From Nitrospirota bacterium (GTDB lineage Bacteria; JACPQY01), in the NCBI GenBank assembly GCA_016190245.1, contig JACPQY010000085.1, positions 1-35,094 of the forward strand: a stretch of 35,094 nt of DNA. Reading direction: 5' to 3'. This document shows positions 9,562-35,094 of this stretch, one piece after another. The notes beneath the pieces were generated by a model. It ran no database searches, was not told where the DNA came from, and saw only the letters and a list, made by a program, of their open reading frames with translations. Position numbers and translations under genes: made by a program. Each line of letters begins with the position of its first letter. Position 1 is the stretch's first letter.

Positions 9562-11322
9562 ATGCACCGGTTCGGTTTGATCCTGCTCCTCCTCGGTGTG
9601 GCCGTCCGGCCCGCCTGGGGCGTGGTCTTTCTCGATGAGGACCGCGCCATCGTCTTCACTCTGAGGGCCTACACGCAGGGACGCCTCCTCACCCAGGAGC
9701 CCGAACGGTACCGGAAAGGCTTCTCCTTCTTCGACGCCGATTCCCAAACCCAAGGCTTTCAAGAAACCTTCGCCGTGGGAGCGCCGAGCCTCCTCCAACA
9801 CCGCAACTACGTCGAGCCCCAGCTCAACATGGACCTTTCGCGCCGGCAGAACGTCACGCCCCTCCTGCAGACGCTGGACGAGAAATTCACCCTCGACAAC
9901 GTAAAGTTTTTCATGGGCGCCCGCGTGGAGTACGACGCCGTGTACCGCTACGGGCCCGATCTCTACACGGACAGAATCCCCGAGGCCGCCCGCGACGACC
10001 TTCGCTCCAAGGCGCGCCTCTTCGAGATCTACGGCGACGCGCGCCTCTTCCGCCGGGTCACCACCCGCGTCGGGCAGCAGAACATCTCCTGGGGAGAGGC
10101 CGACGTCTTCCGCATCCTCGACAACATCAACCCGCTGGACAACACCTTCGGCGGATTCCTCACGCCCCTCGACGAGCGCCGCGTGCCTTCCTTCATGATC
10201 AAGAGCACGGTGGATCTCGGCTCCACCGGCCCGATCTACAACGCGGCCCTCGAAGGATTCATCGAGCCCAAACCCGCGCTCGTGCCGGGTCCGACCGTGC
10301 CCGCGGAAGGCCCGTGGTCCGTTGTGACCGGCCCGCCCTCGCCACTCAGCCTGAGACTCCCGAAAAAGGACCGATGGGACGATGCCCGCGGCGGCGGACG
10401 ACTCCTGTTCAACTGCATGGACACGAGCATGAGTGTGGCCCAGTACTGGACCTACACTGAATCGCCCACGCCCCGCCTCGCGTTCGACACCGCCACGCCC
10501 GCCCAGATCAAGAAAGGCGTGCCGGCCACCGCGACGATCGTGGATGCCGAGTATCCCAAGGGCACGCCGTATCTCGAACTGGCCTACCCACGCATCATGG
10601 TCACCGGCGGGACACTCTCGCGGCCGGTTCCGTTCTCCCCCTATACGATCCTGCGAATGGAAGGGGCATACCTGTTCGATCATCCGTATTTCCTGCCCGA
10701 GGAAAGCCTCCCGCTCGTCGCCCCCACCTTCGAATTGGACGAGACGAAGCGAAAGAACCCGTCCTCCATCGTGGACGTTCTGGCCCGGCAGAAAGCCATC
10801 ATCCAGACCGGGCAGGAAGGCGGGCTCCCCAAGAGCGACCTTGTGAAGTGGGCCGTCGGACTGGATCACAACGCCTGGCTCAGATTTCTTAACCCCCGCC
10901 AGACTTTCTTCGTCAGCGCCCAACTCATCGGCGAACACTGGCGCGACCTCGAACCCGGCGCGGCGTACTCGGTACAGGCCGACTCCTACGTGGCCCGCGT
11001 GCTGCCCCCCGGGCAGTCACAGGCCCAGTTCATGACGCAGCCGGACTTCATCCCGCTCAAGACCAATGCCTACCGGTCCACGCTGCTCGTGCAAACCGGC
11101 TACCCGCTCGGCCACGGGTACATCCAACCGGCCTTCGCCACGATCGCCGAACTTGGCGAATTCGACGCGCTGTCGTACCTGCTGCAACCCTCACTCCAGT
11201 ATCTCCTGGAGCCCTTCCGCGTCAGGCTCGAATACAACCACATCGCGGGCGCCTATGCCGGCGGCGTGGGATTCCTCAAGGACCGGGACAATCTCATGCT
11301 GAAACTGGAGTACGTGCTGTGA
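9562..11322 (+). CDS. DUF1302 outer-membrane beta-barrel protein
   Basis: A 586-residue exported protein. Residues 1-20 form a signal peptide (LILLLLGVAVRPAWG). The central block with GQQNISWGEADVFRILDNINPLDN and GGFLTPLDERRVP is the hallmark of the DUF1302 family, and the rest shows the alternating aromatic pattern of a barrel, ending in an amphipathic strand (LMLKLEYVL) typical of outer-membrane insertion. DUF1302 genes usually neighbour DUF1329, Ycf48-like and RND/MMPL genes, as here. A role as the outer-membrane component of hydrophobic-compound transport is inferred; its direction and substrate are unknown. Its TGA overlaps the GTG of the acylase gene. Confidence 0.85.
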   Translation: MHRFGLILLLLGVAVRPAWGVVFLDEDRAIVFTLRAYTQGRLLTQEPERYRKGFSFFDADSQTQGFQETFAVGAPSLLQHRNYVEPQLNMDLSRRQNVTPLLQTLDEKFTLDNVKFFMGARVEYDAVYRYGPDLYTDRIPEAARDDLRSKARLFEIYGDARLFRRVTTRVGQQNISWGEADVFRILDNINPLDNTFGGFLTPLDERRVPSFMIKSTVDLGSTGPIYNAALEGFIEPKPALVPGPTVPAEGPWSVVTGPPSPLSLRLPKKDRWDDARGGGRLLFNCMDTSMSVAQYWTYTESPTPRLAFDTATPAQIKKGVPATATIVDAEYPKGTPYLELAYPRIMVTGGTLSRPVPFSPYTILRMEGAYLFDHPYFLPEESLPLVAPTFELDETKRKNPSSIVDVLARQKAIIQTGQEGGLPKSDLVKWAVGLDHNAWLRFLNPRQTFFVSAQLIGEHWRDLEPGAAYSVQADSYVARVLPPGQSQAQFMTQPDFIPLKTNAYRSTLLVQTGYPLGHGYIQPAFATIAELGEFDALSYLLQPSLQYLLEPFRVRLEYNHIAGAYAGGVGFLKDRDNLMLKLEYVL

Positions 11323-14285
11323 GGACCGGGAGTCGGCGGAGAAAACGCAAAGGCCGGAACAGCTTTCTCGCACGCGGGCCGGCGGACCCGCCAGTTCTGA
11401 AATCCCTCTTGCTGCTCGCTGCTTACTGCTTACTCGGCTTCCATGCCTGCGCCGAGCCTTCGCGCGGGACCGGCAAAGTGATCGACTTCCCCGTCACCGA
11501 GCGCATCGAAGCGGACGGGCTCTCCGCCGCGGTCGAGGTGGTGCGGGACCGCTACGGCGTTCCCCACATCTACGGCGCATCGGAAGGCGATGTCGCCTTC
11601 GTACAGGGCTGGATCCACTCGCGGGACCGCCTCTTCCAGATGGTGGTCCAGCGCGCGGCGGCGCTCGGCGAGACGGCCGTCCTCATCGGCGCGAGCCGCA
11701 TCCCGGACGACATCCTTTCCCAGATGTTCAAGTTCAAGGACGTCGCCCTGAAACTCTGGGCAAGCGGCACCACCGAGGACGAGCGCGCCTTCCTTCAACG
11801 CTACGCCGACGGCGTGAACGCTTCGCTTCGCGCCATGCAGCCGCAGGACCTCCCGCTCGAATTCCTCGGCCAGGGGATCAACGATCCGGACACGATCTAT
11901 AGCCAGCTCCTCCGGATCAATGACAGCCAGGACGGATGGAGCCCCATTGATACGATCGCCTTCGCCCGCCTCATGACCCACCAACTCAGTTTCGATGACG
12001 AGGGCAGCGAAGGGGAGCGATTCGAGGCGATTCTGAAGTACCTCGCCCCGGAGTTGGTCAAGCGCGGCCTCGCGACCAGCGGCACCGCCGCTCAACTCAC
12101 GGCGCTTTCATGGCTCAAGGACCTCTATCCAACAGTCGGCAACACCGCCGCCATCATTGATCAGCCCGGCACGTACGGTCGGCGCGAGTCGGCGCCCGGC
12201 CGCTGGCGGGCCTCACGCTCCCGACAGACTCGCACGGCTGCGACCGAAGGCACGCGCGCGCTCGGCCGCTACGTCGAGGACCTGCGCTCCCTCACCGGCC
12301 TCGTGCCCGCGTCCAACAACTGGGTCGTGCGCGGAACGATCAGCGAATCCGGCCACCCGATGCTGGCCAACGACCCCCATCTCTCTCTCCAAAATCCACC
12401 TGTCTTCCACGAGGTCCACATCAACACCAAGGAAAAGGGCGGAGACCTCAACGCAGCGGGCGTGATGTTCCCCATGGCACCGGGAGTGGTGATCGGTTTC
12501 AACGAACGCCTTGCGTGGGGAGACACCGTGGTCGGCTACGATGTGACGGATTTCTACGTGGAGCCGGTGGTCTCCGGGGACGGCCCACCCGAAAAATGGA
12601 TGATCAAAAGCCAGGGCCGGGAGGACGTTGCCCTCAAGGCCGTTATCGGCGGCTCGCTGTACAACTCTCCCGGCGGGACCTGCTCCCTACCCGCCCAAGT
12701 CCAGCAGCGGTTGGATGAAATGCTTGTCACGGTCACGTCGAACAACCCGTTCCTGGGCCGGTGCAAGCTCGACTTCCGAACCTACGAAGTCGCCGGCCAC
12801 GGCCCCGTCGTCCACGTCTCGCGAGACGACAGCGGCAAACCGACCTCGCTCATCACCGTGAAGTGGACAGGCATGGAACCGTCCGCGGAGCTGCGCGCGT
12901 TCCATCGCTACCTGACGTCCCAGACGATCCAGGACTTCGAGGCCGCCGTCTCCGAGTTCAAAGTCGGCGCGCAGAACCAAGTCGTGATGGATGCGGACAA
13001 CAACATCGGCTGGTACCCCAACGCCTGGGTGCCAAGACGCGATCCCCTGACCTGCAAGGATCCCAGCGGCCTTTCCGTCCCCTTCTACCTCCCCCAACCC
13101 GGCACCGGAGTGTGCGAGTGGCAAGGCATGATTGACGAAAACGACCTCCCGCGCCTCAAGAACCCCGAACGCGGCTACATCGCCACCGCCAACCACCAGC
13201 CCACCGCCAGCAAATCCTACTATCACGGCTCGTTCTACGACATCGGCTACCGCGGCGCGCGGATCACGCAGCTTCTGGAAGAGAAGAAGAACGCCGGGAA
13301 GATCGGCGTGGCGGACATGAAACGGATCCAGGCGGACACGCACCTCCTCCTGTGCGATGACTTCCTTCCCGTCCTCAAGTCGGCCATCGCGGGCCGAGCG
13401 GCCGAGGCGGGAGCTTCCGGGGAATCCGCCGGCTCCCTCCTCAACGACTACGACTGCTCCTCCCCCTCCGGCTACACGTACGACCGCCTCCGAGGCGCGG
13501 ACTCGCTCGACGTCTCGGCCGATCCGAAAGAACGCGCGCGCTCGGCCGCCGCCTCAATCTTCCATTCCTGGTTCTCCAACTTCGTTCACCTCACCTTCGA
13601 TGACCAGCTCGGCGGGCAGAACCTCGCCGGGCAACAGTACGCCCGCGCGATCTACACGATCACGTTTCGCAAGAACTGCGCGGACGGCGCGCTGAGCTCC
13701 GGCGAACCGTGCCAATCCTCCGGCACCGCCGCCACGGGCACGAGTCCCTTCTGGGATGATTGGTCAACGTCCGACACGATCGAATCGCGGGACGATATCG
13801 CCCGCCGCGCCTTTGCCGACGCGCTCGCCGGCCTCACTGTCAAGTTCGGCACACCCGACCCCTTGCAGTGGCTCTGGGGCCGTCTTCACACCCTCACCGT
13901 CCGCCACTTCGCCTCGGACACCTTCAACAGCCCCTCTCCCTCCGAAAAGCGATTCCAGGAACTCGGACTGAGCGGCTTCCCCCGCCCCGGCGGCGCCTTC
14001 GTGGTGGACGCCTCCGACCCCGGCTTCGGGGTGATGAATGCGGCCACCCAAGCCGACTACGCCTACCGCTCGGGACCGTCCTACCGTCTCGTGGTGGAGA
14101 TGACACCCTCCGGCCCTGAAGCGCACACGGCGCTCCCCGGCGGAAACGTCGCCCACCTCCGCAGCGCGTTCTACGACAACCAACTCCGCGAGTTCTGGTG
14201 GGCTAACCAGTACAAAGAATTTCCTTTCACCAGGGACGAGGTCGAGAGGGCCGCCCGCGAACTCTTCCTGTTCGCCCCGAAATGA
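11319..14285 (+). CDS. Penicillin/AHL-acylase-type Ntn hydrolase
   Basis: A 988-residue precursor of an N-terminal-nucleophile amidase. The alpha-chain motif RDRYGVPHIYGASEGDVAF...QGWIHSRDRLFQM is clear. The autocleavage site and nucleophile are Ser332 in VPAS|NNWVV. His23 of the beta chain (His354 in NDPHLSL) resembles AHL and cephalosporin acylases rather than penicillin G acylase. GFNERLAWGDT follows. The substrate may be an N-acylated lipid, peptide or signal, but it cannot be read from sequence. GTG 11319 overlaps the DUF1302 stop. The N-terminus is odd: a 27-residue Arg-rich leader, then LKSLLLLAAYCLLGFHAC, encoded by a repeat shared almost base for base with the secretin junction at 33554-33616. 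A canonical lipobox is lacking, so lipidation is doubtful, but export is likely. Confidence 0.88.
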   Translation: MRTGSRRRKRKGRNSFLARGPADPPVLKSLLLLAAYCLLGFHACAEPSRGTGKVIDFPVTERIEADGLSAAVEVVRDRYGVPHIYGASEGDVAFVQGWIHSRDRLFQMVVQRAAALGETAVLIGASRIPDDILSQMFKFKDVALKLWASGTTEDERAFLQRYADGVNASLRAMQPQDLPLEFLGQGINDPDTIYSQLLRINDSQDGWSPIDTIAFARLMTHQLSFDDEGSEGERFEAILKYLAPELVKRGLATSGTAAQLTALSWLKDLYPTVGNTAAIIDQPGTYGRRESAPGRWRASRSRQTRTAATEGTRALGRYVEDLRSLTGLVPASNNWVVRGTISESGHPMLANDPHLSLQNPPVFHEVHINTKEKGGDLNAAGVMFPMAPGVVIGFNERLAWGDTVVGYDVTDFYVEPVVSGDGPPEKWMIKSQGREDVALKAVIGGSLYNSPGGTCSLPAQVQQRLDEMLVTVTSNNPFLGRCKLDFRTYEVAGHGPVVHVSRDDSGKPTSLITVKWTGMEPSAELRAFHRYLTSQTIQDFEAAVSEFKVGAQNQVVMDADNNIGWYPNAWVPRRDPLTCKDPSGLSVPFYLPQPGTGVCEWQGMIDENDLPRLKNPERGYIATANHQPTASKSYYHGSFYDIGYRGARITQLLEEKKNAGKIGVADMKRIQADTHLLLCDDFLPVLKSAIAGRAAEAGASGESAGSLLNDYDCSSPSGYTYDRLRGADSLDVSADPKERARSAAASIFHSWFSNFVHLTFDDQLGGQNLAGQQYARAIYTITFRKNCADGALSSGEPCQSSGTAATGTSPFWDDWSTSDTIESRDDIARRAFADALAGLTVKFGTPDPLQWLWGRLHTLTVRHFASDTFNSPSPSEKRFQELGLSGFPRPGGAFVVDASDPGFGVMNAATQADYAYRSGPSYRLVVEMTPSGPEAHTALPGGNVAHLRSAFYDNQLREFWWANQYKEFPFTRDEVERAARELFLFAPK
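11392..11454 (+). repeat. Repeat-derived signal-peptide module (copy 1)
   Basis: These 63 nt match the reverse complement of 33554-33616 at 59 of 63 positions by eye. The centre is four heptads (CTTGCTG, CTCGCTG, CTTACTG, CTTACTC at 11408-11435). Both copies are read in the same frame and give VLKS..LLAAYCLLGF.AC. At the other locus this segment is the downstream end of a four-helix-gene cassette, so this copy may be a remnant of such a cassette. Weaker similarity extends about 25 nt upstream. Confidence 0.75.
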
Positions 14286-14308: not shown

Positions 14309-15628
14309 ATGCTTCGCTCACGCCTGCTCGCGATCGCCCTCCCCCTTCTGCTGCCGGCCCTCGCCCTGGCAGACGCGCCTCCCGCGGGGCAGAAGATCTC
14401 CAAAGACAACATCGCCGCCCACCGCGATCTCCTCCCCGCCTCCGTGGCGGACCGGGTCGCCTCCGGCGCCTACGAGATCACGATCGGCGATCTGAAGCCG
14501 GCCTCTCTCTCCACCGTGTACGCCAAGGGCTTCTACGAGGCCTCGTCGAACAACAAGGGGAAGTTCAAGCTCGCCGACGGCGGCGGCCTCGTCTCCACCG
14601 CGTCCGGAGAGCGAACGCGACTTCCCTACGGCCTCCCCTTTCCGGACATCACCGCCTCGGACCCCGATGCCGGCACAAAGATCATGTGGAACTTCTATGC
14701 CACCGAGTTCCAGAACAACGCCCAGGAGGCCATGTTCGTCCTCCGCACACTCAAAGGGAATTCGGTGGAGGTCGAGGTCATCGGCAAGGTCGCCCGCCTC
14801 AACGTGGATTTCAGCACCCGCGAATTGCCCGGCGCGGCCAAGGGGAATTCCTACATGGAGAACGCCCTCTACCTCGCGCCGGCGGATCTCTTCGGCACCG
14901 TGACGCTCACGTGGCGATGGCAGGACTCCGCCAAGTGGGACACCACCTGGGCCTACTCCCCCTCGATTCGGCGCGTGCGGCGCACGTCCTCCGCCAACCG
15001 GTCGGACCCCATCGGCCCGACGGATTTCATCCTCGACGACCTCAACGGCTATTCGGGCAAGGTCGAATTCATGAACTGGAAGCTCATCGAGGAGAAGGAC
15101 ATGCTCGTCGCATATCTGCCCGATGACGCGGACTCCAACACGGTCACCTTCCCGCGCGTCGGGGCCGCGGCCCCCAAGTTCGGCGCGCGCGCGTTCAACC
15201 AGCCGCGCTACACAGTGCGATGGGGATACGGCGACCCCACGAAGGGCCTCTCCGCGTGGTGGCCGCTCAACTGGGTGTGGGTGAAGCGCCCCGTGTACGT
15301 CGTGGAAGGCACCTCCAAAGATCCCTACTACAGCATCGGCAAGCAACACCTCGTGATCGACCGGGAGACGTTCCGGATCCACATGAAGCTCGGGTGGGAC
15401 CGCGCGGGCGAATACTGGCGGACCCAGGTGATGAACCAGAGCTACTACATCTCGCCGAAGAAAGACGTCTCCGCGGCCGCCGCTGAAATTTCGTTCGTGG
15501 TGGACGAAAAACGAAACCGGGCCTCGGTGTCCAGCCGGGTTGACGAGAAGATCAACCCGACGGCCTTCGATATCCAGATCGATCCGTCGCTCTTCTCGTC
15601 CAGCAATTTCCTCAACTATGGCAAGTGA
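14309..15628 (+). CDS. DUF1329 periplasmic protein
   Basis: A 439-residue exported protein. I prefer ATG 14309 because AAAGGAG lies 7 nt upstream and a clean signal peptide follows (LLAIALPLLLPALALA|DAPPA); an ATG at 14282 overlapping the acylase stop is the alternative. Family features include the N-terminal ITIGDLKPASLSTVYAKGFYEASS, RRVRRTSSANRSDPIGPTDF and the C-terminal WRTQVMNQSYYISPKKD. DUF1329 proteins have a LolA/LolB-like fold in structural annotations and occur beside DUF1302 barrels, so a periplasmic carrier of lipid-like molecules to the outer membrane is a reasonable inference. Here the acylase gene is interposed between the two. Confidence 0.82.
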   Translation: MLRSRLLAIALPLLLPALALADAPPAGQKISKDNIAAHRDLLPASVADRVASGAYEITIGDLKPASLSTVYAKGFYEASSNNKGKFKLADGGGLVSTASGERTRLPYGLPFPDITASDPDAGTKIMWNFYATEFQNNAQEAMFVLRTLKGNSVEVEVIGKVARLNVDFSTRELPGAAKGNSYMENALYLAPADLFGTVTLTWRWQDSAKWDTTWAYSPSIRRVRRTSSANRSDPIGPTDFILDDLNGYSGKVEFMNWKLIEEKDMLVAYLPDDADSNTVTFPRVGAAAPKFGARAFNQPRYTVRWGYGDPTKGLSAWWPLNWVWVKRPVYVVEGTSKDPYYSIGKQHLVIDRETFRIHMKLGWDRAGEYWRTQVMNQSYYISPKKDVSAAAAEISFVVDEKRNRASVSSRVDEKINPTAFDIQIDPSLFSSSNFLNYGK

Positions 15629-15647
15629 CACTGCCAAAGGAGGCAAC

Positions 15648-16520
15648 ATGAAACATCTGCGACCACCCATGCCGTGCTCGGTGAATCATCCTCAAAGTGT
15701 CCGATCCGTTCTGCGCGAAGCCCGGCTTCCGCTCCTGCCTCTCCTGCTCACGGTTCTATGTTCGCTGTTCACGATCCCGGCTTGCGGCGACGACGAGGAG
15801 GCCGGCATCACCGCCCCGGCCGGCTGCGAGTGGACGGACGCATGTCCGACCGGCTGGAAGAAGAGCGGGAACACCTGCGAGTACACGGCGGGCGCCACGA
15901 CCACGATCGAAGGCAACGTCGCCGTGTTTTCGTTCAACAGCCCCGTCGCGAATGCCGTCGTCAAGGTACAGAACTTCGGCACGGAACTGCCCGCGTGCGG
16001 CGTGTCCGATGCAGCCGGTCTCCTGAAGATCGAGGGCGTCCCGACGAACATCGATCCGACACTCGCCGCGAAGGCCCCCGATGCCTTCCTCGGCAAGCCC
16101 ACCTACACTTTCCATGCCGACTACGTCACGAGCCTCGCGGGCCCAATCACGGGAGCCACGGTTTACGTGATCAACGATCCCCTCGCCAAGATCTTCCTTC
16201 CGGCCCTGGGCATCACAACCGCCCCCCCAAGTGGACGCGGCTTTGTGGCCGGGGCAACGTACGACGCGGCCGAAAACCCCATCGGCGGGATCACCGCGTC
16301 AGCGAGCAGCACGGACGCCGGGACGAAGACGCTCTATACGGCCAACAACCTGCCCAATACCGCGGCCACGGAATCAGACGCCTCGGGACAATACATTCTC
16401 GCCGGCCTCCCCGTCGGTGAAACCACAATCACCGTCTCCAAGGGCGGTGCCGCCATCGGGAACACCAAGGCGATCGTCTACGACCAGGCGGTGACGTTGG
16501 CGAGTGTGGTGGTGAAGTAG
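15648..16520 (+). CDS. Putative lipoprotein with carboxypeptidase-regulatory-like repeats
   Basis: A 290-residue protein. AAAGGAGG lies 4 nt before ATG 15648. The N-terminus ends in LLLTVLCSLFTIPAC|GDDEE, a signal peptide with IPAC as a plausible lipobox. Next is a Cys-containing segment (CEWTDACPTGWKKSGNTCEY), then two beta-sandwich-like modules: VFSFNSPVANAVVKVQNFG...DAAGLLKIEGVP and ASGQYILAGLPVGETTITVSKGG, resembling carboxypeptidase-regulatory domains. The gene closes the DUF1302-acylase-DUF1329 operon, so the product may be a cell-surface partner. The DNA for the hydrophobic core is built of four in-phase heptads. Specific function is unknown. Confidence 0.65.
   Translation: MKHLRPPMPCSVNHPQSVRSVLREARLPLLPLLLTVLCSLFTIPACGDDEEAGITAPAGCEWTDACPTGWKKSGNTCEYTAGATTTIEGNVAVFSFNSPVANAVVKVQNFGTELPACGVSDAAGLLKIEGVPTNIDPTLAAKAPDAFLGKPTYTFHADYVTSLAGPITGATVYVINDPLAKIFLPALGITTAPPSGRGFVAGATYDAAENPIGGITASASSTDAGTKTLYTANNLPNTAATESDASGQYILAGLPVGETTITVSKGGAAIGNTKAIVYDQAVTLASVVVK
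15745..15772 (+). repeat. Four-unit heptad array within lipoprotein signal sequence
   Basis: TGCTCAC, GGTTCTA, TGTTCGC and TGTTCAC follow in strict 7-nt phase and match a rotation of the YTYACTG heptads at 32-34 kb. They encode LLTVLCSLFT, close to LLLTAYCSLV at the end of the four-helix gene at 31642. Only four degenerate units, so chance resemblance is possible. Confidence 0.4.
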
Positions 16521-27649: not shown

Positions 27650-28249
27650 TCAGAACCTGAGCTCGAACGAATCCCCGTCTATCTCAATCACCGCGCGCGA
27701 CGGGCCTACCTCCTTCAGCGTGACGTCGCCGATCCTCTCCCCCACCCTTTGAAAAGAGTGGACTCGCCCGTTCACCTCAACCACGGCACCGCGCTCGTCC
27801 ACCGCCACGAGTTTCAACTTGGGTCTCGGCTTGGGAGGCGGGGCCTTCGCCTTCGCCTCCTCCACCTTCCTCTCGGCTTCCCGGCGTGTTGCCACATCCG
27901 CCTGCCGGACCTCCGCCTGGGCCTTCGCCAGGCGCGCCCGCAACTCTGCACGGTAGACATCCATCCTCAGCGCATCCAATTCAGGATCTTCCAGCCAGTC
28001 GAGCCTGGGGAACGCGGCGGAAGATGGGGCGGTCTTCGGCGGCGCCGATAAAGGCACGGCGGACTCGGGCGCCCCCGACTCCGTCGCTTCCGTCCCTGCC
28101 TCTCTCTCACTCCCGAACGAGCCGAGAGGGCTCTCCTCGCCCTGCGCGCGGGCGCTGGAGTCCTCTGACGTCGGCCACCCCCTCCAAAACCATCCGTATG
28201 CCACGGCGATGGCCACAATCGTCGCTGCGATCCAACCATTCTTCTTCAT
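27650..28249 (-). CDS. PilP/GspC-like inner-membrane protein
   Basis: A 199-residue bitopic protein. GGAGG precedes ATG 28249, which overlaps the previous stop (ATGA). One N-terminal TM (WIAATIVAIAVAYGWFW) is followed by a Pro/Ser linker, a coiled-coil-like segment around residues 90-130 (ARLAKAQAEVRQADVATRRE), and a small beta domain: LKLVAVDERGAVVEVNGRVHSF...RIGDVTLKEVGPSRAVIEI. This last part resembles the PilP/GspC HR domain that contacts secretins. It follows the PilO-like gene, matching the order in type IV pilus operons. It is the last recognisable gene of the operon before the repeat-rich gap. The fold call is by pattern and not certain. Confidence 0.55.
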   Translation of the reverse strand: MKKNGWIAATIVAIAVAYGWFWRGWPTSEDSSARAQGEESPLGSFGSEREAGTEATESGAPESAVPLSAPPKTAPSSAAFPRLDWLEDPELDALRMDVYRAELRARLAKAQAEVRQADVATRREAERKVEEAKAKAPPPKPRPKLKLVAVDERGAVVEVNGRVHSFQRVGERIGDVTLKEVGPSRAVIEIDGDSFELRF

Positions 28250-28950
28250 GGATTGCCTCCTCTCGGCATAATGCCTGCCGATACCGCCGGCCCAGCCGCC
28301 GGCCGCTCCAACACGCGACCGACCACGGACGCCGTCACATCGAGTCTCCCTCGATCCCAGGTCACCAGCTCCACGACCACCGGCCACTGGGAAAGTCTTT
28401 CGAGAAATACGCCAACCCCGCTCAACGCCGGCACGGGGACTCGGATCACGGATCCGCACGTCTCCCACGTCTCCTGGCGCGCACATGTCCCCCGCTCTAT
28501 TTGGCCCTCCAGCGCCTCTATGCCGTCTCCCAGCGCCCCCAAGGTGTCTCCGGCAGCGGGGGGATCCTCGCCCGCGGGCCACGCTCCTCCCGCTGCGCCG
28601 GACTCGCCGATCGGCCAGGAGCACCGGCCGCGCCCAAACGCCCCGCCGGCGGCCTCGCAGGCCTCAAGACCCGGACCTTCGACTTCAATGGACGTGGAAC
28701 TCCACGTCAAGCTTCTCACACCGCCCAAGCCGGCCAGTGCCGGCGGTCGCTCGGGGATCGGGAGCCTCCGGCCGGACCGCCACTTCGCCAGCGCACGGGT
28801 CGCCGCGTCCTCGATGACCGGCTTCGACCGCTCGGCCCATCGAGCTTGTTCGACGGCGTCCCTTTCCTTCGACTCCCGCGATCTCATCCAGTACTCTGTC
28901 CCGGTCGCTCCAAGCGCAACAAGAGCGACAAAGACTGCAACCCTATTCAT
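28246..28950 (-). CDS. PilO/GspM-like inner-membrane protein
   Basis: About 234 residues. One N-terminal TM (RVAVFVALVALGATGTEYW), a coiled region (RESKERDAVEQARWAER), a Gly/Ala/Pro-rich middle, and a C-terminal domain reading VIRVPVPALSGVGVFLERLSQWPVVVELVTWDRGRLDVTASVVGRV. The last pattern, a helix then strands describing a ferredoxin-like fold, resembles PilO and GspM, which link the inner membrane platform to secretins. ATG 28950 is used; the frame continues upstream through a CGATTCT heptad tract that is unlikely to be coding. It is placed between traC and the PilP-like gene. Confidence 0.5.
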   Translation of the reverse strand: MNRVAVFVALVALGATGTEYWMRSRESKERDAVEQARWAERSKPVIEDAATRALAKWRSGRRLPIPERPPALAGLGGVRSLTWSSTSIEVEGPGLEACEAAGGAFGRGRCSWPIGESGAAGGAWPAGEDPPAAGDTLGALGDGIEALEGQIERGTCARQETWETCGSVIRVPVPALSGVGVFLERLSQWPVVVELVTWDRGRLDVTASVVGRVLERPAAGPAVSAGIMPRGGNP

Positions 28951-29010
28951 CCGAGACGCCCCCCCTCCGTATTTCGCCATTCGGAATCCGGTTTCTCCTT
29001 CTTCCCTGTT

Positions 29011-29038
29011 CGATTCTCGATTCCCGATTCTCGGTTCA
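29011..29038. repeat. Four-unit CGATTCY heptad array containing the traC stop
   Basis: CGATTCT, CGATTCC, CGATTCT, CGGTTCA lie in strict 7-nt phase. The traC stop (TGA at 29038-29036 on the minus strand) falls within the last unit. The array separates traC from the PilO-like start. Confidence 0.65.
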
Positions 29039-31642
29039 CGACCCCTTCCCCCTCCCCGCCGCCACGCCCATCGGATACTTCTCCGCGAGCATCCGCACCG
29101 CATCCACCTTGCTCCCCGTCTCCTTCACCGCGGCATGGAAGGCCTGCACGTCCGCCCCATCCGTGGTGGACACCCAGTACGAGACCGGGTCCGGCACGAG
29201 CCGGAGCACTCCGTCCCTCGTGGCTCCTTCGAAGGTTGTGAGGACGAACGCCTCGCTGTAGTACCCCTTGCGCATGTGCACGGTCTGGATCGTGCGCACC
29301 TGGTTCGGGTTGAGGTGCAAGTGCTTCGCCAGGGTCTCCAGCGCCTTCGGCTGCTGCTTGAGCAGGAAAAGGTTCGGAGCGTTCGAGACGATCGCCTCGC
29401 CGGCGGGGAACTGGACGAGATCGAGCACGTCCTGCGTGATCACAAACACCAGACCGGAGTACTTCCGAAACGTTTTGTAGCCTTCCTGGATGAAGGCCGC
29501 GGCGGCCGGGTCTTTCAGGAACGCCCACGCCTCGTCAATCATCAGGTACTTGCGGACGCCGCGAATGGCCTCATCGCGCACCACGCGGATGATCAGGTTC
29601 ATCACGGCCATCATGAGTGGTCCCCGGAGGTCGGGCTGGTCCTTGGCCTCGGTGAGGTCAAACACGGTCATCCGGTTTCCCAGTCGCAGCCTGGTCGGAC
29701 CGTCGAAAAATGCCCCGAAACGCCCCTGCCGCGTGAACGGATAGAGCTTCAGCGCAAGCCCCTCGCCCAGGCTCCCCTCCTCTTTCAGGGCTTGAGTGAT
29801 GTCGCTGACGAAGACCTCCTCGCCCCGCTTCCGCTCGAACGCCTTTCTCAGCGCGATCTCGAAGAGGACCTTCTGATCGCGCGTCACGGGCTCCTGACTC
29901 TCGGGGTCCCGCACCATCTGCGCGAGGAGGGGCACCCAGAGGGCCACGCTGGCGTCGTTCAGTTCGTCCGCAAAGGGATTGATGCATGTCGGATTCTTGA
30001 GAACGATCTGGGCATAGTCGCCGTCCAACATTTCACATAGTTTCTGGTAGGAGCCCCCAACATCTATGATGAACACGAACGGGCGCGGGTTCAGCCGTTG
30101 GGCCTGGATGAGCATGTCGTTCGTGAAGAAGCTCTTGCCGGCGCCGGAGGTGGCCAGGATGAGGCCGTGGGGGCTCGTGTCGCAGTCCATCGGGTCCGCT
30201 GTGACGGGCACGCCCAGGCGGGAGACATAGAGCTGGGTGGGCGTGCGCGTGCCCGCGAAGTACCCCCAGAGGGGGAGGAACATAACGAAGCGGTCGGAGA
30301 GGACCTTTCGCAGTCGCCTCAAGTACGTGTCGAGTCTCGGATCGAAGCCGAGGGGGAGGCTGGAGAGGAGGACCGGCAGAACCACGTCCGTCTCGATCGA
30401 GGCCGTGGCGCCGACGAACGAGAAGGCGCGCAGCAAGGCGTCGGTCGTCTCGGCTTGCTGGGCGGGGGGCGAGGACGCGACGACGTGGACGGCGAACGAC
30501 ACGATCCGGCGGTTTTTCCCTTCGATTTCCTTGAGAACGTCGTCCAGTTCATCCAGGATGACCTTGGCCGCGAGGTTCTCCTGGCCCGTGATGGACCGCG
30601 CCTGCCGTCCCGCCAGGAACCGCTTCGCGCCAAGGGCGGACTTGGACTCGGCCAACGTCAGGTTCACGAAGTTGATGGCGACCAGGAGGTTGCCCGTGTA
30701 CCGTTCGAGGAGGGTGTTGATCAGGGCGGGGCCGACACTCCCAGGAAGGCCCGTGAGGCTGAGGACCTGCGTGCACAGACCGTCGAGCAACAGGTGGTCC
30801 TCCCGAACCTCGCAGTTCCCGAAAGCGATCTGCTCGCGCAGCGGCCGCCCGTCCGGAATGAATCGTCCACCCCCACCTGCCTCCTCCCCCATCGAGGGGG
30901 AGGAACTTTTGGGCGCCCCCTCCCCCCTTGCGGGGGAGGGTGAGGGTGGGGGGTGATTCCCGAACGCGAAAGAGCGCGCCCTCCCCGGATTCAGCGCCCG
31001 GTACGCAATCCCCAACAGCCCCGTCATGTCGAGCCGCTCCGGGCGGAACCCGTACCCTTGCAACCCCCTCTCCAGCCCGAGCCCCTGCCGCATGAGGTCG
31101 GCCTTGCGCGCGAGGTAGTCCCGATGGATTTCGCCCGCGATCGCCCCCCGGCCCTTGGCGGCCCATGCCAGAATGCCGCCTGCCGTCCGCGTCGGCGGCG
31201 GCGAGATGAGCATGAGGTAGACCGCAAACCGGCGGCACCGGTACGGATCTCCCGGCCAGAAGCCGTGCACCGCGGCGTCGCGATATCGCGCCGACTTCCC
31301 CTCGCACAGCAGTGTTATAAGACTGTCAGGTGGGAGTTCCGAAGCACCCAAGAACTTGTTCAGAGTGTCATCCACGTCCCCGCTGACCTCGAGAAGGAAC
31401 TGCCCGCAGAACCCCTGGGGTATCTCCAGGAGCAGCCGCTCCACCACCTCGCCCATCCGAGCCTTTGCCTCATCCGAATCGGTCTCGCTCGGCACCGGCG
31501 AGATCCGCCAGCCCATCCCCAGCCGCCCGTCCACCTGGATGAACACCTGCCCATCGGGGTCGTAGTCGTAGTAGGGCAGCAGTTCGGCCACATCGGGGCC
31601 GCGATCATTCAGCGCCGCGAGGCGCTCACGGGAGATAGCCAT
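29036..31642 (-). CDS. traC: TraC/VirB4-family type IV secretion ATPase
   Basis: An 868-residue ATPase of the F-type TraC group, which energises pilus assembly and transfer at the inner membrane. The N-terminal TraC domain (LLPYYDYDPDGQVFIQVDGRLGMGWRI) is followed by Walker A (ATSGAGKSFFTNDML near residue 490) and Walker B (RKYLMIDEAWAF near 695). VFVITQDVLDL and NAPNLFLLKQQP complete the motor core. ATG 31642 shares one base with the stop of the four-helix gene (TGATG). Residues about 229-259 are a Pro/Gly/Ser insertion encoded by a GC-rich palindrome, in frame. Its last codon lies in a heptad array. Neighbours traB and traV-like support an F/SXT-type conjugation system. Confidence 0.93.
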   Translation of the reverse strand: MAISRERLAALNDRGPDVAELLPYYDYDPDGQVFIQVDGRLGMGWRISPVPSETDSDEAKARMGEVVERLLLEIPQGFCGQFLLEVSGDVDDTLNKFLGASELPPDSLITLLCEGKSARYRDAAVHGFWPGDPYRCRRFAVYLMLISPPPTRTAGGILAWAAKGRGAIAGEIHRDYLARKADLMRQGLGLERGLQGYGFRPERLDMTGLLGIAYRALNPGRARSFAFGNHPPPSPSPARGEGAPKSSSPSMGEEAGGGGRFIPDGRPLREQIAFGNCEVREDHLLLDGLCTQVLSLTGLPGSVGPALINTLLERYTGNLLVAINFVNLTLAESKSALGAKRFLAGRQARSITGQENLAAKVILDELDDVLKEIEGKNRRIVSFAVHVVASSPPAQQAETTDALLRAFSFVGATASIETDVVLPVLLSSLPLGFDPRLDTYLRRLRKVLSDRFVMFLPLWGYFAGTRTPTQLYVSRLGVPVTADPMDCDTSPHGLILATSGAGKSFFTNDMLIQAQRLNPRPFVFIIDVGGSYQKLCEMLDGDYAQIVLKNPTCINPFADELNDASVALWVPLLAQMVRDPESQEPVTRDQKVLFEIALRKAFERKRGEEVFVSDITQALKEEGSLGEGLALKLYPFTRQGRFGAFFDGPTRLRLGNRMTVFDLTEAKDQPDLRGPLMMAVMNLIIRVVRDEAIRGVRKYLMIDEAWAFLKDPAAAAFIQEGYKTFRKYSGLVFVITQDVLDLVQFPAGEAIVSNAPNLFLLKQQPKALETLAKHLHLNPNQVRTIQTVHMRKGYYSEAFVLTTFEGATRDGVLRLVPDPVSYWVSTTDGADVQAFHAAVKETGSKVDAVRMLAEKYPMGVAAGRGKGS
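30865..30957. repeat. Palindromic repeat inserted in frame in traC
   Basis: CCTCCCCC/GGGGGAGG (30883-30903) and CCCTCCCCC/GGGGGAGGG (about 30917-30940) form two stems. They are enclosed by outer CCACCCCCACC and GGTGAGGGTGGGG arms. This is the CCCTCACCCTCCCCC-type interspersed palindrome common in bacteria. It adds about 30 residues rich in Pro, Gly and Ser between conserved parts of TraC. Confidence 0.75.
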
Positions 31643-32082
31643 CAGACCAGTGAGCAGTAAGCAGTGAGCAGCAAGCCCGATGTCAGGCCTGAAGCGGATG
31701 AGACGCTTGCAGACATTCGCTTCAACGAGCGAATCAGCCCCGTCAACATCTTGCTGACGGAGACCGAGGTCTCTTCCAACCGCGTGTCCGTCCGATATTC
31801 CAGCAGACGTGCGATTTCAAGGTGCGTGTCAAGTTCGCTCAGCGAGCCCTGAGCATAGTGAAGGAAGTTCGCGAATTCCTTGCGCGTCTGCCGACCCGCT
31901 CCCTCGGCAATGTTCGACGCGATGCTGACAGCGGCCCGACGAGCCTGTGACGTCAGCCCATATCTCTCTTCCTCCGGCCAACTCCGAGTCGACTCATATA
32001 CAGCCTTGACCAGCATCAGGCTTTGCCTCCACACCTGCAGCCGTTTGTGCGGTTTCACACGGCCGGCGTCATGCTTCTCCAT
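31642..32082 (-). CDS. Four-helix-bundle protein (S23/IVS family), cassette B
   Basis: A 146-residue protein of the 23S-IVS/four-helix-bundle family. Signatures are PHKRLQVWRQSLMLVKAVYE, SQARRAAVSIASNIAEGAGRQT, EFANFLHYAQGSLSELDTH and SKMLTGLIRSLKR. AGGAGGTGG precedes ATG 32082. It is about two thirds identical to the copy at 33.6-34.0 kb by eye. The C-terminus runs into the left heptad array and becomes GLLLTAYCSLV, a hydrophobic tail not typical of the family, and its TGA overlaps the traC ATG. Members may bind nucleic acid; related Avd proteins assist retroelement reverse transcriptases, but no RT is present in this window. Confidence 0.88.
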   Translation of the reverse strand: MEKHDAGRVKPHKRLQVWRQSLMLVKAVYESTRSWPEEERYGLTSQARRAAVSIASNIAEGAGRQTRKEFANFLHYAQGSLSELDTHLEIARLLEYRTDTRLEETSVSVSKMLTGLIRSLKRMSASVSSASGLTSGLLLTAYCSLV

Positions 32083-32289
32083 CAGCCCACCTCCTCCTCC
32101 GTCCCTGTTCACCGTCTGACCGCTTACTGTCTTGCTGTTCACTGCTTACTGCTCACTGCCCACTGCTCACAGCTTACTGTCTTGCTGCTCCCTATCCTGT
32201 TGCTCCCTGTCCTGCTGCTCACTGTCCTGCTGCTCACTGTCTTGCTGCTCACTGCTTACTGCTCACTGTTCACTGCTCACTGTTCACTT
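31648..32289. mobile_element. Four-helix-gene cassette B with inverted YTYACTG arrays
   Basis: The left end is four heptads (CAGTGAG, CAGTAAG, CAGTGAG, CAGCAAG at 31648-31675). The right end is a long array of the complementary heptads (CTTACTG, CTCACTG, TTCACTG) from about 32104 to 32289. Thus the ends are inverted and surround one four-helix gene. On the minus strand, entry through the right array meets TGA/TAA in every frame, while exit through the left array is open. The downstream stop of the secretin (32277) falls in the right array. Confidence 0.55.
32173..32289. repeat. Heptad array with 15-nt higher-order units
   Basis: From 32173 five 15-mers follow each other (CTTACTGTCTTGCTG, CTCCCTATCCTGTTG, CTCCCTGTCCTGCTG, CTCACTGTCCTGCTG, CTCACTGTCTTGCTG), each a heptad plus an octad. 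Six plain heptads run on to 32289. Less regular units extend back to about 32104. The secretin's final codons and stop are embedded in it. Confidence 0.75.
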
Positions 32290-34007
32290 TGCCCCGTTCG
32301 CAGCACGCGCACGATGAAGACAGCCTGCTCCGTCCGCTCCGTATCTCCGAACCACCCCTTCTCCGTTGTGGAACCCGCGCCCGTGGAGACAATGAGCGGC
32401 TGGCCGATCTCCGCCGTGGACGTGGTGGAGAAACTGTGATTGAGGCGGTCGGCCACGCCCCCGGCCATTTCGACGATCACGCGGCCGGTGTTCGAGTAGT
32501 CCCGGTGCGGCGTAACGTACAGCTCCCAGCCGCCGGCCTGGGAGCCCGGCGAAGATTCAACCGCCATGTGGACCGTCCACCCGTTCAGCGCGACCACCCG
32601 CGGGCGCGACACGAGCCGGGCCTTTTCGGGCGCGAGCCCCGCCAGGAAGACGGCCGCGGGGTCCGTGTCCTCCCCCTTGAGTTTCCCCTCCAACGCGACC
32701 GGTCCACCGGGAAGGATCCGATCCAGACCGATCCGCTCCGCCACGCTTTCCCACGAGACTCCGTCCTTGCCCGGCGAGGCGAGCAGGATGGCCACCTCCA
32801 CCAGCCAGGGCTCCCGCGACTCGGCCTCGATCTGCCGGAAATAGCGGTCCAGCGCCCTTATGTTTTGGTGCTCGTCGCGCACGATGGCCGTGCCGCTGAT
32901 GGGATCCACCATCACCTTCCCCTCGGGGGAGAGGAACGAGCGGATGGAGTTCTGCAAAGCCGTGCCCGGGTCCTCGGCGTATCTCACGGTTACGCCACCT
33001 CCGTTCGAGCCGGGCAGCGCCGCGGGCCGACGCGCCCACACTTCGGGAAGGTAGAAGACCCTTTCGATGTACCTGCGCACGAGGGCGGTGTGCGCCGTGA
33101 AATCGAACTCCGCGGTGTATCCCGCCTGAGAAACGAGGCCGTCCACAGCCACGTGGAAGGGAATCTCGGTGAGGTCGGCTGATACCGCTCTCTCCGGGTC
33201 CACCCCCTCGTCCCACTTCACACTCCATTCCGCCTGCAACCCCAGCCTCTCCAGCGCCATTCGCAGAGGCAGACCGGCGGCTTGCAGCGTAACCGAAGGT
33301 GTCGCCCGGGCCATCATCTCCTCGCGATCCGACCCCATCCCGAATGCGCGGTCGAGATCCCGACTCCCCCTCTCATCCGACCTCTCGCCCTCCCCCCTAC
33401 CCCGGCTTCCCGGTTCTCCGCCGCGGCGGGCTCCCTGTTCCCTGGCTTCCCGACTGCCCACTGCCGACTCCCTCCTGCCGACTCCCGATTCCGCCACCGA
33501 CTGCATGATCGCCTTCTTCTCCTCCTCGTCCATCCCGTAACTGTCGGTCTTGCCGGCGCAGGCCTGGAAGCCGAGTAAGCAGTAAGCAGCAAGCAGCGAG
33601 ACGGATTTCAGAACTGATGGGGCCGCGAACCCGTTGCGAGCCGACTTCAGGGATCGAATCAAGCCTGTCAGCATCTTGCTGACTTCGGTTGTGCTCCGTG
33701 CGGCGCCGGAGTCCACCCGGTAGCCAAGCACGCCCGCAATTTCGAAATGGGTATCCAGCTCACTGAGTGAAGCTTGAGCGATGTGGAGGAAGTTGATGAA
33801 CTCCTTTCGAGTCTGGCGGCCGGCCCCCTCCGCGATATTGGCTGCGACACTGACAGCCGCCCGCCGCGCCTGGGAACTCAGCCCGTATCGTTCTTCTTGC
33901 GGCCACAGTGTCGTCATTTCATAGGTCCGTTTCACGACCTCGAGGCTTCTTTTCCAGACCTCCAACCTCTTGTGCGGCTTGAGATCATTCCGAACTGCAT
34001 CCACCAT
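32277..34007 (-). CDS. Four-helix-bundle domain fused in frame to a secretin-like protein
   Basis: One 576-codon frame. Residues 1-125 are a complete S23/IVS four-helix protein (PHKRLEVWKRSL, SQARRAAVSVAANIAEGAGRQT, SELDTHFEIAGVLGYR) with AAGGAGGG before ATG 34007. Residues 131-150 (SVLKSVSLLAAYCLLGFQAC) are a signal-peptide-like core. Residues about 172-215 are a low-complexity heptad-derived linker. From about 230, VTLQAAGLPLRMALERLGLQAEW, IPFHVAVDGLVSQAGYTAEF and ARLVSRPRVVALNGWTVHMAVESSPG...GQPLIVSTGAG...QAVFIVRVL match secretin N-domain and core. A secretin forms an outer-membrane ring and needs export, so ATG at residue 112 may be the real secretin start, or the fusion is not exported. 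The stop is supplied by a heptad array. Confidence 0.72.
   Translation of the reverse strand: MVDAVRNDLKPHKRLEVWKRSLEVVKRTYEMTTLWPQEERYGLSSQARRAAVSVAANIAEGAGRQTRKEFINFLHIAQASLSELDTHFEIAGVLGYRVDSGAARSTTEVSKMLTGLIRSLKSARNGFAAPSVLKSVSLLAAYCLLGFQACAGKTDSYGMDEEEKKAIMQSVAESGVGRRESAVGSREAREQGARRGGEPGSRGRGEGERSDERGSRDLDRAFGMGSDREEMMARATPSVTLQAAGLPLRMALERLGLQAEWSVKWDEGVDPERAVSADLTEIPFHVAVDGLVSQAGYTAEFDFTAHTALVRRYIERVFYLPEVWARRPAALPGSNGGGVTVRYAEDPGTALQNSIRSFLSPEGKVMVDPISGTAIVRDEHQNIRALDRYFRQIEAESREPWLVEVAILLASPGKDGVSWESVAERIGLDRILPGGPVALEGKLKGEDTDPAAVFLAGLAPEKARLVSRPRVVALNGWTVHMAVESSPGSQAGGWELYVTPHRDYSNTGRVIVEMAGGVADRLNHSFSTTSTAEIGQPLIVSTGAGSTTEKGWFGDTERTEQAVFIVRVLRTGQSEQ
33361..33492. repeat. CCGACTN-type heptad tract inside the secretin gene
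   Basis: Heptads related to TGCCGAC, TCCCGAC and TCCCGAT are clear from about 33449 to 33492. More degenerate CT-rich units reach back to 33361. They encode an Arg/Glu/Gly/Ser-rich linker (RRESAVGSREAREQGARRGG) between the signal region and the secretin domain. The same class lies inside aguA at 23200-23230. Confidence 0.6.
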
Positions 34008-34222
34008 GAGCTATCCCTCCTTCATTTCAATTCCGAATTCTTCACCTCTTACTGCTCACTGTTCACTGTTTACTGCTTACTGTTCACTGCTCACCATTCA
34101 CTGTTCACTATTCACTGATCACTCTTCACCCTTTACTCCTTGCCGTTCACTGTTTACTGCTCACTGCTTACTGTTCACTATTCACCATTCACTGTTCACT
34201 GCTTACTGTTCACCCTTCACAC
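33573..34222. mobile_element. Four-helix-gene cassette C with inverted YTYACTG arrays
   Basis: Left end: GAGTAAG, CAGTAAG, CAGCAAG, CAGCGAG at 33573-33600. Right end: 26 consecutive heptads at 34041-34222 on the opposite strand sense. A four-helix reading frame lies between and continues through the left end into the secretin. The left end with 19 nt outside and 16 nt inside is the 63-nt module also found at 11392-11454. The cassette lies between the traV-like gene and the secretin. Confidence 0.55.
34041..34222. repeat. Perfectly phased 26-unit heptad array (YTYACTG)
   Basis: All 182 nt divide into 26 heptads without any insertion or deletion: TTCACCT, CTTACTG, CTCACTG, TTCACTG, TTTACTG and so on. 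Substitutions are frequent but phase is never lost. The plus strand reads as repeated LLTAYCS/LFTVHCS in every frame. The minus strand carries TGA or TAA in every frame. Confidence 0.85.
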
Positions 34223-34228
34223 CTCGCC

Positions 34229-34669
34229 CTACGGGCGGCCCTCCGGCGCGGGCTTCGATTCCGGATGGAGGGGCAGCGGGGGGGCGGAACGCCCCGAGCC
34301 TCCCGGCCGCTCGAATTGGATGATGTCGGGATTCCACCGCCAGTCCTTGATCCTGTAGTAGATCCAGTGGCCGTTCACATAGATTTCCGGCCCCACCGTA
34401 TGGGGTGCAACCCACACTTCGATGTGTTCGGGAGGCACGACGAGGGGCACGTAGGGTTGCTCGTATCCGAAGGGGCGCTCCACTTTAAAGTGTTCCTGGA
34501 GATCCCGAATACCCTCTCCGGCTCCCTCCTTCAGCCCCTCTTTGAACGCATCGGCCGTGTTCTTTCCCTGGATCTTGGCGCTGCAGGCCACGCCGAGAGC
34601 GATGAGCGACAGGAGATGAGTAATGACGACCAGACGGGTGAATCGCCTCACCCCTCGGTTCTCGCGCAT
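34229..34669 (-). CDS. TraV-like conjugation lipoprotein
   Basis: A 146-residue protein. The N-terminal VVITHLLSLIALGVAC is a lipoprotein-like signal; the lipobox is loose. The C-terminal part (EHIEVWVAPHTVGPEIYVNGHWIYYRIKDWRW) resembles the end of TraV, where a VWIAPW...YVY.EI..RRW pattern is usual. TraV is the VirB7-like outer-membrane lipoprotein that forms the core complex with TraB and TraK. ATG 34669 overlaps the traB stop (TGATG). Order traB-traV-...-traC matches F/SXT-type operons. The final Pro-rich tail runs up to the heptad array. Assignment is by position and C-terminal pattern. Confidence 0.6.
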   Translation of the reverse strand: MRENRGVRRFTRLVVITHLLSLIALGVACSAKIQGKNTADAFKEGLKEGAGEGIRDLQEHFKVERPFGYEQPYVPLVVPPEHIEVWVAPHTVGPEIYVNGHWIYYRIKDWRWNPDIIQFERPGGSGRSAPPLPLHPESKPAPEGRP

Positions 34670-35094
34670 CACTCCACTCCCCCGAACAGGTTCGCAATCT
34701 CGGGAATGTCGACTCCCTCGCTGAGCATCAAGGCGGCATCAATGCCGCCGGGGATGTCCACTGTGGGCATGAGCCTGGCGGCCTCCTGCTGCATGAACTT
34801 GGCAATGTCCGCCATCGCCTGGCTCAGGGCCGACGTCCCCGCGTGCGTGATCGCATCGCCGGTCACGATCTGTCTCTCCGTCCCGTCCGCCGAAATCACC
34901 CGGGTCACCTCCTGGACGGCGAAGGCCTGGCTGAGACCCGCGGCAAACCCTGCTATGAAGCTGAGCCCCAGCTTCCGGCCCCGGCGATCCGTTACCTTCC
35001 CCGCGATGCCCAGCCCGCCATCCGGCCCTGCCACCCAACCCTGAAGCGGCCGATCCAAACTGCGGCCACCTGGGAAAACGCAACTGAAAAGTCG
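34669..35094 (-). CDS. traB: TraB/VirB10-family protein, C-terminal part
   Basis: The visible 141 residues are the C-terminus of a TraB-type VirB10 homologue; the frame stays open to the window edge, so the gene starts outside. It reads RLFSCVFPGGRSLDRPLQGW, then VAGPDGGLGIAGKVTDRRGRKLG and FIAGFAAGLSQAFAV, a pattern typical of TraB, where this domain forms the outer-membrane channel cap. The end, ARLMPTVDIPGGIDAALMLSEGV, corresponds to the family's last strand. TraB spans both membranes and forms the core complex with TraV and TraK. Its stop overlaps the traV-like start. Confidence 0.85.
   Translation of the reverse strand, partial: RLFSCVFPGGRSLDRPLQGWVAGPDGGLGIAGKVTDRRGRKLGLSFIAGFAAGLSQAFAVQEVTRVISADGTERQIVTGDAITHAGTSALSQAMADIAKFMQQEAARLMPTVDIPGGIDAALMLSEGVDIPEIANLFGGVE

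Follow-up and report, generated by a model that had tools for sequence, protein, structure and literature searches.

A secretin-like lipoprotein gene and S23 genes flanked by inverted heptamer arms in an F-order type IV secretion operon of a Nitrospirota bacterium

The window analysed here is a stretch of 35,094 bases, namely bases 1-35094 of contig JACPQY010000085.1 (C79; 132,860 bases), from a Nitrospirota genome (G000; 86 contigs totalling 3.29 Mb, completeness 84.8%). From position 27650 to its end it carries minus-strand genes of a type IV secretion system (T4SS), among which stand a gene for a secretin-like lipoprotein and two genes of the S23 family (PF05635). By eye, the genes surrounding this tra locus look chromosomal. 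An earlier sequence-only reading of the same DNA had described a conjugation operon with secretin, PilO-like and PilP-like parts; the genes and overlaps that it listed are present, and its assignments of traB, traV and traC agree with the family matches given below. For comparison we used G001, the sole other member of the phylum in the collection, which belongs to the same family and a different genus. The features, in the direction of transcription, are:

34669..35094, minus strand: C-terminal part of traB (PF03743 TrbI, E 1.5e-13), in a gene whose other end lies near contig base 36033; G001 homologue 38% identical (PF03743, E 2.4e-23).
34229..34672, minus strand: traV-like lipoprotein (PF09676, E 1.6e-4, above cut-off); G001 homologue in the same place, 43% identical.
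34039..34229, minus strand: arrays of heptamers preceding the first S23 gene, of GTGAACA type on the coding strand, seen in a lag-7 scan; best arm 34143-34172.
33666..34007, minus strand: first S23 domain, a four-helix bundle (PF05635, E 1.3e-30) that shares its reading frame with the secretin; G001 has an S23 copy at the same junction.
32277..33674, minus strand: lipoprotein secretin, MshL/BfpB-like by profile comparison, with N0, N1 and core (hhalign E 2.2e-20); possible internal start at 33674.
32241..32268, minus strand: upstream arm of an inverted repeat, perfect over 28 bp, that encloses the second S23 gene; the RNA fold prediction pairs it (z -3.2).
31642..32082, minus strand: second S23 gene (PF05635, E 4.1e-34), with ATG at 32082 or, alternatively, a start of the open reading frame (ORF) at 32142; its stop codon and the start of traC share TGATG.
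31648..31675, minus strand: downstream arm of the same 28-bp repeat; it stops 5 bases short of the traC ATG, at the place where a ribosome-binding site would lie.
29036..31642, minus strand: traC ATPase, VirB4 type (TIGR02746, E 4.7e-92; PF11130, E 2.5e-18); 75% identical in G001.
28246..28950, minus strand: protein PilO-like by shape only, with an N-terminal membrane helix and no family match; G001 homologue directly after traC, 38% identical.
27650..28249, minus strand: inner-membrane protein with a GspC/PilP-like C-terminal domain (PF11356, E 1.6e-4; PF16537, E 2.9e-4; both under cut-off); G001 homologue 43% identical.

Beyond position 35094, traL, traE and traK, for which the sequence-only reading had suggested looking there, all lie on the same contig. 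Read along the minus strand, the order is traL (about 55.0-54.7 kb; PF07178, E 1.2e-8), traE (54169-53486; PF05309, E 2.2e-9), a TraU-like giant, traK, traB, traV, the secretin, traC and the PilO-like and PilP-like genes, so that homologues of traL, E, K, B, V and C follow one another in F-type order on one strand. TraK is a gene of its own upstream of traB (PF23536 TraK_C, E 2.9e-6 in G000 and 6.9e-13 in G001), and between traE and TraK come genes whose role is not clear, among them those for a 176-residue lipoprotein, the TraU-like protein of 1190 residues, and proteins of 425 and 384 residues. The same gene set is found in G001 on three contigs, one with the TraU-like gene to the secretin, a second with traC to the PilP-like gene and a third with traL-traE; traL is 77% identical between the two genera, traE 61%, TraK 44% and the secretin 57%. 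The 425-residue protein had no match among the G001 loci searched, and two additional lipoprotein genes precede traC in G001. Genes meet by TGATG at traB/traV and S23/traC, and by ATGA at the PilO-like/PilP-like junction. The overlaps from which a tight single operon had been proposed are thus real, but the operon is interrupted by repeat tracts and S23 genes, and the S23 insertion elements that appear to have shaped it had gone unnoticed.

How firmly can the secretin be named? HMMER matches were weak (Secretin_N, E 0.017; HofQ, E 2.5e-4). With a profile built from the two homologues, matches at E <=0.001 were obtained in 18 other genomes of the 386 searched, and these external matches are ordinary secretins: the three of the 18 that were scanned all carry PF00263, at 7.7e-35 to 1.3e-46, and some adjoin PilM/PilO/PilP-like genes by eye. 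Compared profile against profile, the pair aligned with the 18 external rows along 299 columns that span N0 through the core, with a probability of 99.3 and the E-value listed above, which is somewhat flattered because the target, while lacking the two query rows, was made of rows picked for matching the query. Both proteins have a lipoprotein-type signal (LLAAYCLLGFQAC in the window), and the best PDB sequence match is BfpB (weak, E 0.028). On these sequence grounds the operon gene is a true lipoprotein secretin of the MshL/BfpB type, and its earlier naming as secretin-like is borne out by the profile comparison over N0, N1 and core. That it might be an ordinary TraK is ruled out by the separate traK gene. 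The gene set upstream of the outside secretins was too mixed for use.

Secretins were not a general feature of TraC neighbourhoods. TraC was present at E <=1e-20 in 16 of the 386 genomes, and of the 14 besides G000 and G001 we examined 13 (G222 and a second locus of G063 were left out); no secretin was matched by either profile at E 0.1 in any of 15 stretches of up to 20 kb each. Two stretches of a further tra system on contig C20 of G001 also lacked a secretin, and the operon secretin had no match in 72,556 plasmid records or in IMG/VR.

The two small genes after traC fare differently. The PilP-like protein has, by eye, an N-terminal membrane helix, and its C-terminal domain resembles T2SSC and T2SSB, the latter also matched by the G001 homologue; a GspC/PilP-type domain is thus probably present, as had been suggested, at scores below the Pfam cut-offs. 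For the product of 28246-28950, no Pfam match was obtained with either homologue. Its profile scored 18.7 against a PilO set (from which rows L123, L129, L130 and L131 had been dropped as likely wrong frames), the best of 200 column shuffles scored 18.2, and the E-value was 0.043, which is no more than a hint; the model predicted from its sequence alone (pLDDT 47) is not reliable. Searches of the PilO-like and PilP-like profiles against alignments of PilO and of PilO neighbours gave nothing firm. The PilO identity proposed for this gene was not confirmed. PilM and PilN were not seen by eye among the operon ORFs, and no hidden Markov model search was aimed at either. A canonical PilO is encoded at another locus in both genomes, so the PilO-like, PilP-like and secretin genes of the operon are additional.

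Whether the machine conjugates is a separate matter. TraH (PF06122) had no match in G000, which is 85% complete, and in G001 only a sub-cut-off match (E 0.0017) in its other system. The 1190-residue protein is TraU-like by eye, and neither homologue matches the Pfam TraU model at E up to 1. With TraH not found in G000, no PF12696 coupling protein there and PF10412 matched below cut-off, the conjugation of the sequence-only reading is not shown, and such a role is a guess. As observations beside this, a second TraU-like giant with lipoprotein genes (contig positions 70000-77600; L008/L009) resembles the first by eye, with no second traC in the genome, and G001 carries more F-like tra genes: a second traC, traL and a coupling protein on C20, and relatives of traE, traK, traB and traV on C25.

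Four PF05635 genes exceed the cut-off in G000, all on this contig. Three belong to the tra locus, where one precedes the secretin, one precedes traC and one separates traL from traE; the fourth is at 18.2 kb in the window. Were the copies independent, the chance of at least three of four falling within 27.4 kb would be 2e-6; two of them are 70% alike, however, which makes local duplication likely. The T4SS-linked copies (the three of G000 and one of G001) share 46-70% identity with one another versus 35-41% with the 18-kb copy. PF05635 proteins resemble Avd of diversity-generating retroelements, according to the portion of PMC10053308 consulted. A REP-type Y1 transposase gene (43690-44706 of the contig; PF01797, E 7.9e-13), whose product weakly matches a DnaA-like family at its C terminus, also lies inside the tra locus.

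Comparison of the junctions between genera suggests insertion. At the traV-secretin junction both genomes have an S23 gene. At traL-traE, G001 has no S23 and the two genes overlap by the four bases ATGA; the junction is filled in G000. G001 traC has no S23 before it and its ATG is preceded by AAGGAGG, whereas G000 traC lacks AAGGAGG: there, the 3' arm of the perfect repeat (32241-32268 with 31648-31675) occupies the ribosome-binding-site place, and traC starts within the stop of the second S23 gene. In the first S23 locus the arm pair is 34143-34172 with 33574-33604 (score 20, as defined below). The secretin ORF as a whole (32277-34007) begins with the S23 domain, whose frame enters the secretin without a stop, and the downstream arm codes for the hydrophobic core of the secretin signal peptide. 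A comparable arrangement was seen at C10:31693 of G001 (L108), where an S23 gene with CAGGAAC arms is joined in frame to a pilin-like prepilin sequence downstream of it; there too, a gene of an envelope machine has an S23 leader.

Arms of this kind accompany S23 genes in many other genomes. All of the first seven S23 loci displayed had seven-base tandem repeats in their flanks, inverted across the gene, with heptamers that varied between most loci (GTGAACA in two copies, CAGTCGG, AAAGGTC, CAGGAAC, GATTTGA and others). To score arms, we compared the 350 bases upstream of the gene with the reverse complement of the 350 bases downstream and took the best match; the threshold of 20 was set after the first loci had been seen, and the next 40 loci served as an independent repeat at the same threshold. 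The survey took one locus per genome from the upper part of the list, skipping G164 (contig end) and G247. In G000 and G001 together, eight of nine over-cut-off S23 genes reached 20 and the ninth scored 18 (one of the nine has, by eye, a period of eight); among sub-cut-off matches one of three did so. In other genomes, arms were present at 20/30 of the first S23 loci and 29/40 of the next, that is, at 49/70 in 70 genomes. The controls were far lower: 3/29 PilO loci, drawn from partly different genomes than the S23 set; 36/1210 mismatched pairs of upstream and downstream S23 flanks; and 5/600 and 22/800 shuffled pairs for the two S23 sets and 21/580 for PilO. Periodicity was compared as well, with a lag-7 identity window of at least 0.66 at 15/30 and 27/40 S23 loci and 0/29 PilO loci, against 1, 0 and 1 for lag 6 and 4, 3 and 0 for lag 8. 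None of 20 surveyed S23 loci overlapped an Rfam family, rRNA included. We found no paper that pairs S23 genes outside rRNA with inverted heptamers in the literature searched, which covered few subscription journals.

By the genetic code, (TGTTCAC)n gives CSLFTVH in all frames, a hydrophobic and cysteine-bearing unit. At a lag-7 identity of at least 0.44, a cut-off picked afterwards, 3/8 lipoprotein signal peptides on this contig and 9/13 on the fetched G001 loci are heptamer-periodic, versus 0/10 on 20 other G000 contigs and 0/18 in other genomes. The link of heptamer repeats to signal peptides in this region is suggestive only, and the 0/10 on the other contigs leave a genome-wide habit unsupported. 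Periodic examples are found at 11319-14285 and 15540-16520 of the window, at 43063-43593 and 46145-46954 of the contig, and in L007, L018 and L100 of G001.

Taken together, we consider it probable that the locus is an F-order T4SS that has gained an MshL/BfpB-type secretin with PilP-like and membrane-anchored proteins, and that has been invaded by arm-bracketed S23 elements. The TraK/TraB/TraV complex with the TraC ATPase would most likely form the usual channel, and the secretin would serve beside it as a second or alternative outer-membrane gate; the PilP-like domain may dock on the secretin N0, tying the secretin to the inner-membrane part. In the transcript, the arms would pair into a long stem, as the predicted fold of the traC copy suggests. 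Ribosomes translating S23 could then melt this stem and pass on to traC by way of the TGATG overlap, and RNase III could cut it, releasing the S23 segment and splitting the polycistronic message. At the secretin, the downstream arm seems to have become the hydrophobic core of the lipoprotein signal peptide. The hybrid machine of the sequence-only reading stands insofar as a secretin has been added to an F-order operon with its own traK; its pilus alignment subcomplex is half supported, the PilP-like domain being weak, PilO not established and PilM/PilN not seen.

We put forward more tentatively, as a possibility short of an even chance, the wider view that S23 genes outside rRNA are widespread mobile elements which enter the junctions of protein genes and are like the intervening sequences (IVS) of rRNA, with arms seeded by the target and tolerated through mRNA cutting or S23 translation, three of which entered this tra operon and had their arms recruited as signal peptide and translational coupler. 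The traE heptamer resembles bases at the target, and heptamers differ from locus to locus, both of which we count toward target seeding.

A number of results weigh against these proposals. The window secretin gave no HMMER match to the core family PF00263 at E up to 1. Single-sequence AlphaFold models were too poor for use (pLDDT 47 and 37), and in the rows listed from fold searches with them neither pilus nor secretin proteins appear, which is not usable as evidence. The PilO assignment is unsupported. No coupling protein was found in G000 (PF12696 none, PF10412 sub-cut-off matches only). The S23-secretin fusion would place a cytosolic domain ahead of a signal peptide and would need internal restart or cleavage to work. 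The whole first S23 region, at the secretin, folds no better than its shuffles (z -0.02), in a weak test whose shuffles retain much of the repeat composition. And 21 of the 70 S23 loci in other genomes lack arms by our score.

It might be argued that the secretin and the PilP-like protein are foreign to the transfer machine, a pilus or type II remnant that serves a separate type IV pilus. The lack of PilM or PilN among the genes seen in the operon and the canonical PilO elsewhere in both genomes fit such a remnant. In both genera, nonetheless, the secretin, PilO-like and PilP-like genes keep company with tra genes, the PilO-like and PilP-like ones immediately following traC, and by eye no pilin or pilus-ATPase gene is seen beside them; we consider the remnant unlikely.

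Two other accounts concern the S23 genes. If these were working parts of the secretion machine, such as chaperones or RNA-binding regulators, rather than insertion elements, one could understand why the T4SS-linked copies are closer to one another than to the 18-kb copy and why the traV-secretin junction is occupied in both genera; but two of the three junctions are free of S23 in G001, and matched arms also accompany S23 genes in most of the 70 other genomes, with 0/20 overlapping an Rfam family, so that this account appears improbable to us. The heptamer arrays could also be ordinary slippage-prone repeats at sites that S23 genes merely tolerate or prefer. An excess of heptamer repeats is described for many bacteria, and paired convergent sites for Xanthomonas, as far as the consulted part of PMC4692102 goes, which does not mention S23; similar heptamers moreover occur in signal peptides away from S23 in both G000 and G001. 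Arms that are inverted about S23 and matched locus by locus, with true pairs so far in excess of mismatched ones (49/70 versus 36/1210), weigh against slippage, and we find this explanation quite doubtful. We prefer to see the S23 genes as arm-bracketed insertions.

If the secretin of this tra operon is a true one, it would connect the outer-membrane gate of type II and type IV pilus machines directly with a type IV secretion core, which is rare. The S23 result is perhaps of greater weight. It links a large, functionally uncharacterised family of small proteins to matched inverted arms of seven-base repeats in genomes across the bacterial domain, which offers a testable mechanism, in RNA processing or element mobility, and suggests an origin for some heptamer repeats.

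Two further features of the contig are set down here. The traC gene contains an in-frame insert (window 30866-30979, about residues 222-259, beginning PPPSPSPARGEGAP) that G001 traC lacks; similar stretches are coded at several further places in both genomes, which suggests that the ATPase gene has taken up a dispersed repeat. At 115651-121300 (L095), a Cas9-like protein of 946 residues, small for Cas9, has HNH and a weak RRXRR match and adjoins Cas1 and, by eye, CRISPR-array-like repeated units.

Among known systems, the operon is closest in layout to the F/SXT tra operon, with the same traL, traE, traK, traB, traV and traC in order on one strand. It differs in the extra secretin, PilP-like and PilO-like genes, in a TraU-like giant without a Pfam match, and in that neither TraH nor a coupling protein was found in G000. 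Its secretin resembles the MshL/BfpB secretins of type IV pili in the lipoprotein signal, the N0-N1-core layout and the weak best PDB match to BfpB; it differs by lying in a tra operon, by a core too diverged for PF00263, and by having no pilin, PilM or pilus ATPase gene beside it, as judged by eye. A secretin-type domain in a T4SS has a precedent in the Dot/Icm T4BSS, whose DotD is described in the consulted part of PMC2951367 as a lipoprotein with a secretin N0-like domain; DotD has the N0-like domain only, whereas the window operon encodes a whole secretin. No tra operon with a whole secretin was found described in the literature searched.

The S23 elements, finally, are best compared with the 23S rRNA IVS of Coxiella burnetii. 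According to the sections of PMC4990558 consulted, that IVS has inverted-repeat ends forming a 28-bp stem and an S23p ORF with two or three copies of the heptamer GACAGAT upstream; RNase III cuts it, and it is possibly what is left of a mobile element. An S23 ORF between complementary ends, a 28-bp stem and heptamers upstream of the ORF are found in the window as well. There, the elements sit in a protein operon (the window has no Rfam match, so an rRNA location does not apply), their heptamers stand on both sides, inverted and locus-specific, and cleavage is a prediction only. With these differences, the operon S23 elements look, in their sequence, like the intervening-sequence elements of rRNA, but housed in operons of protein genes.

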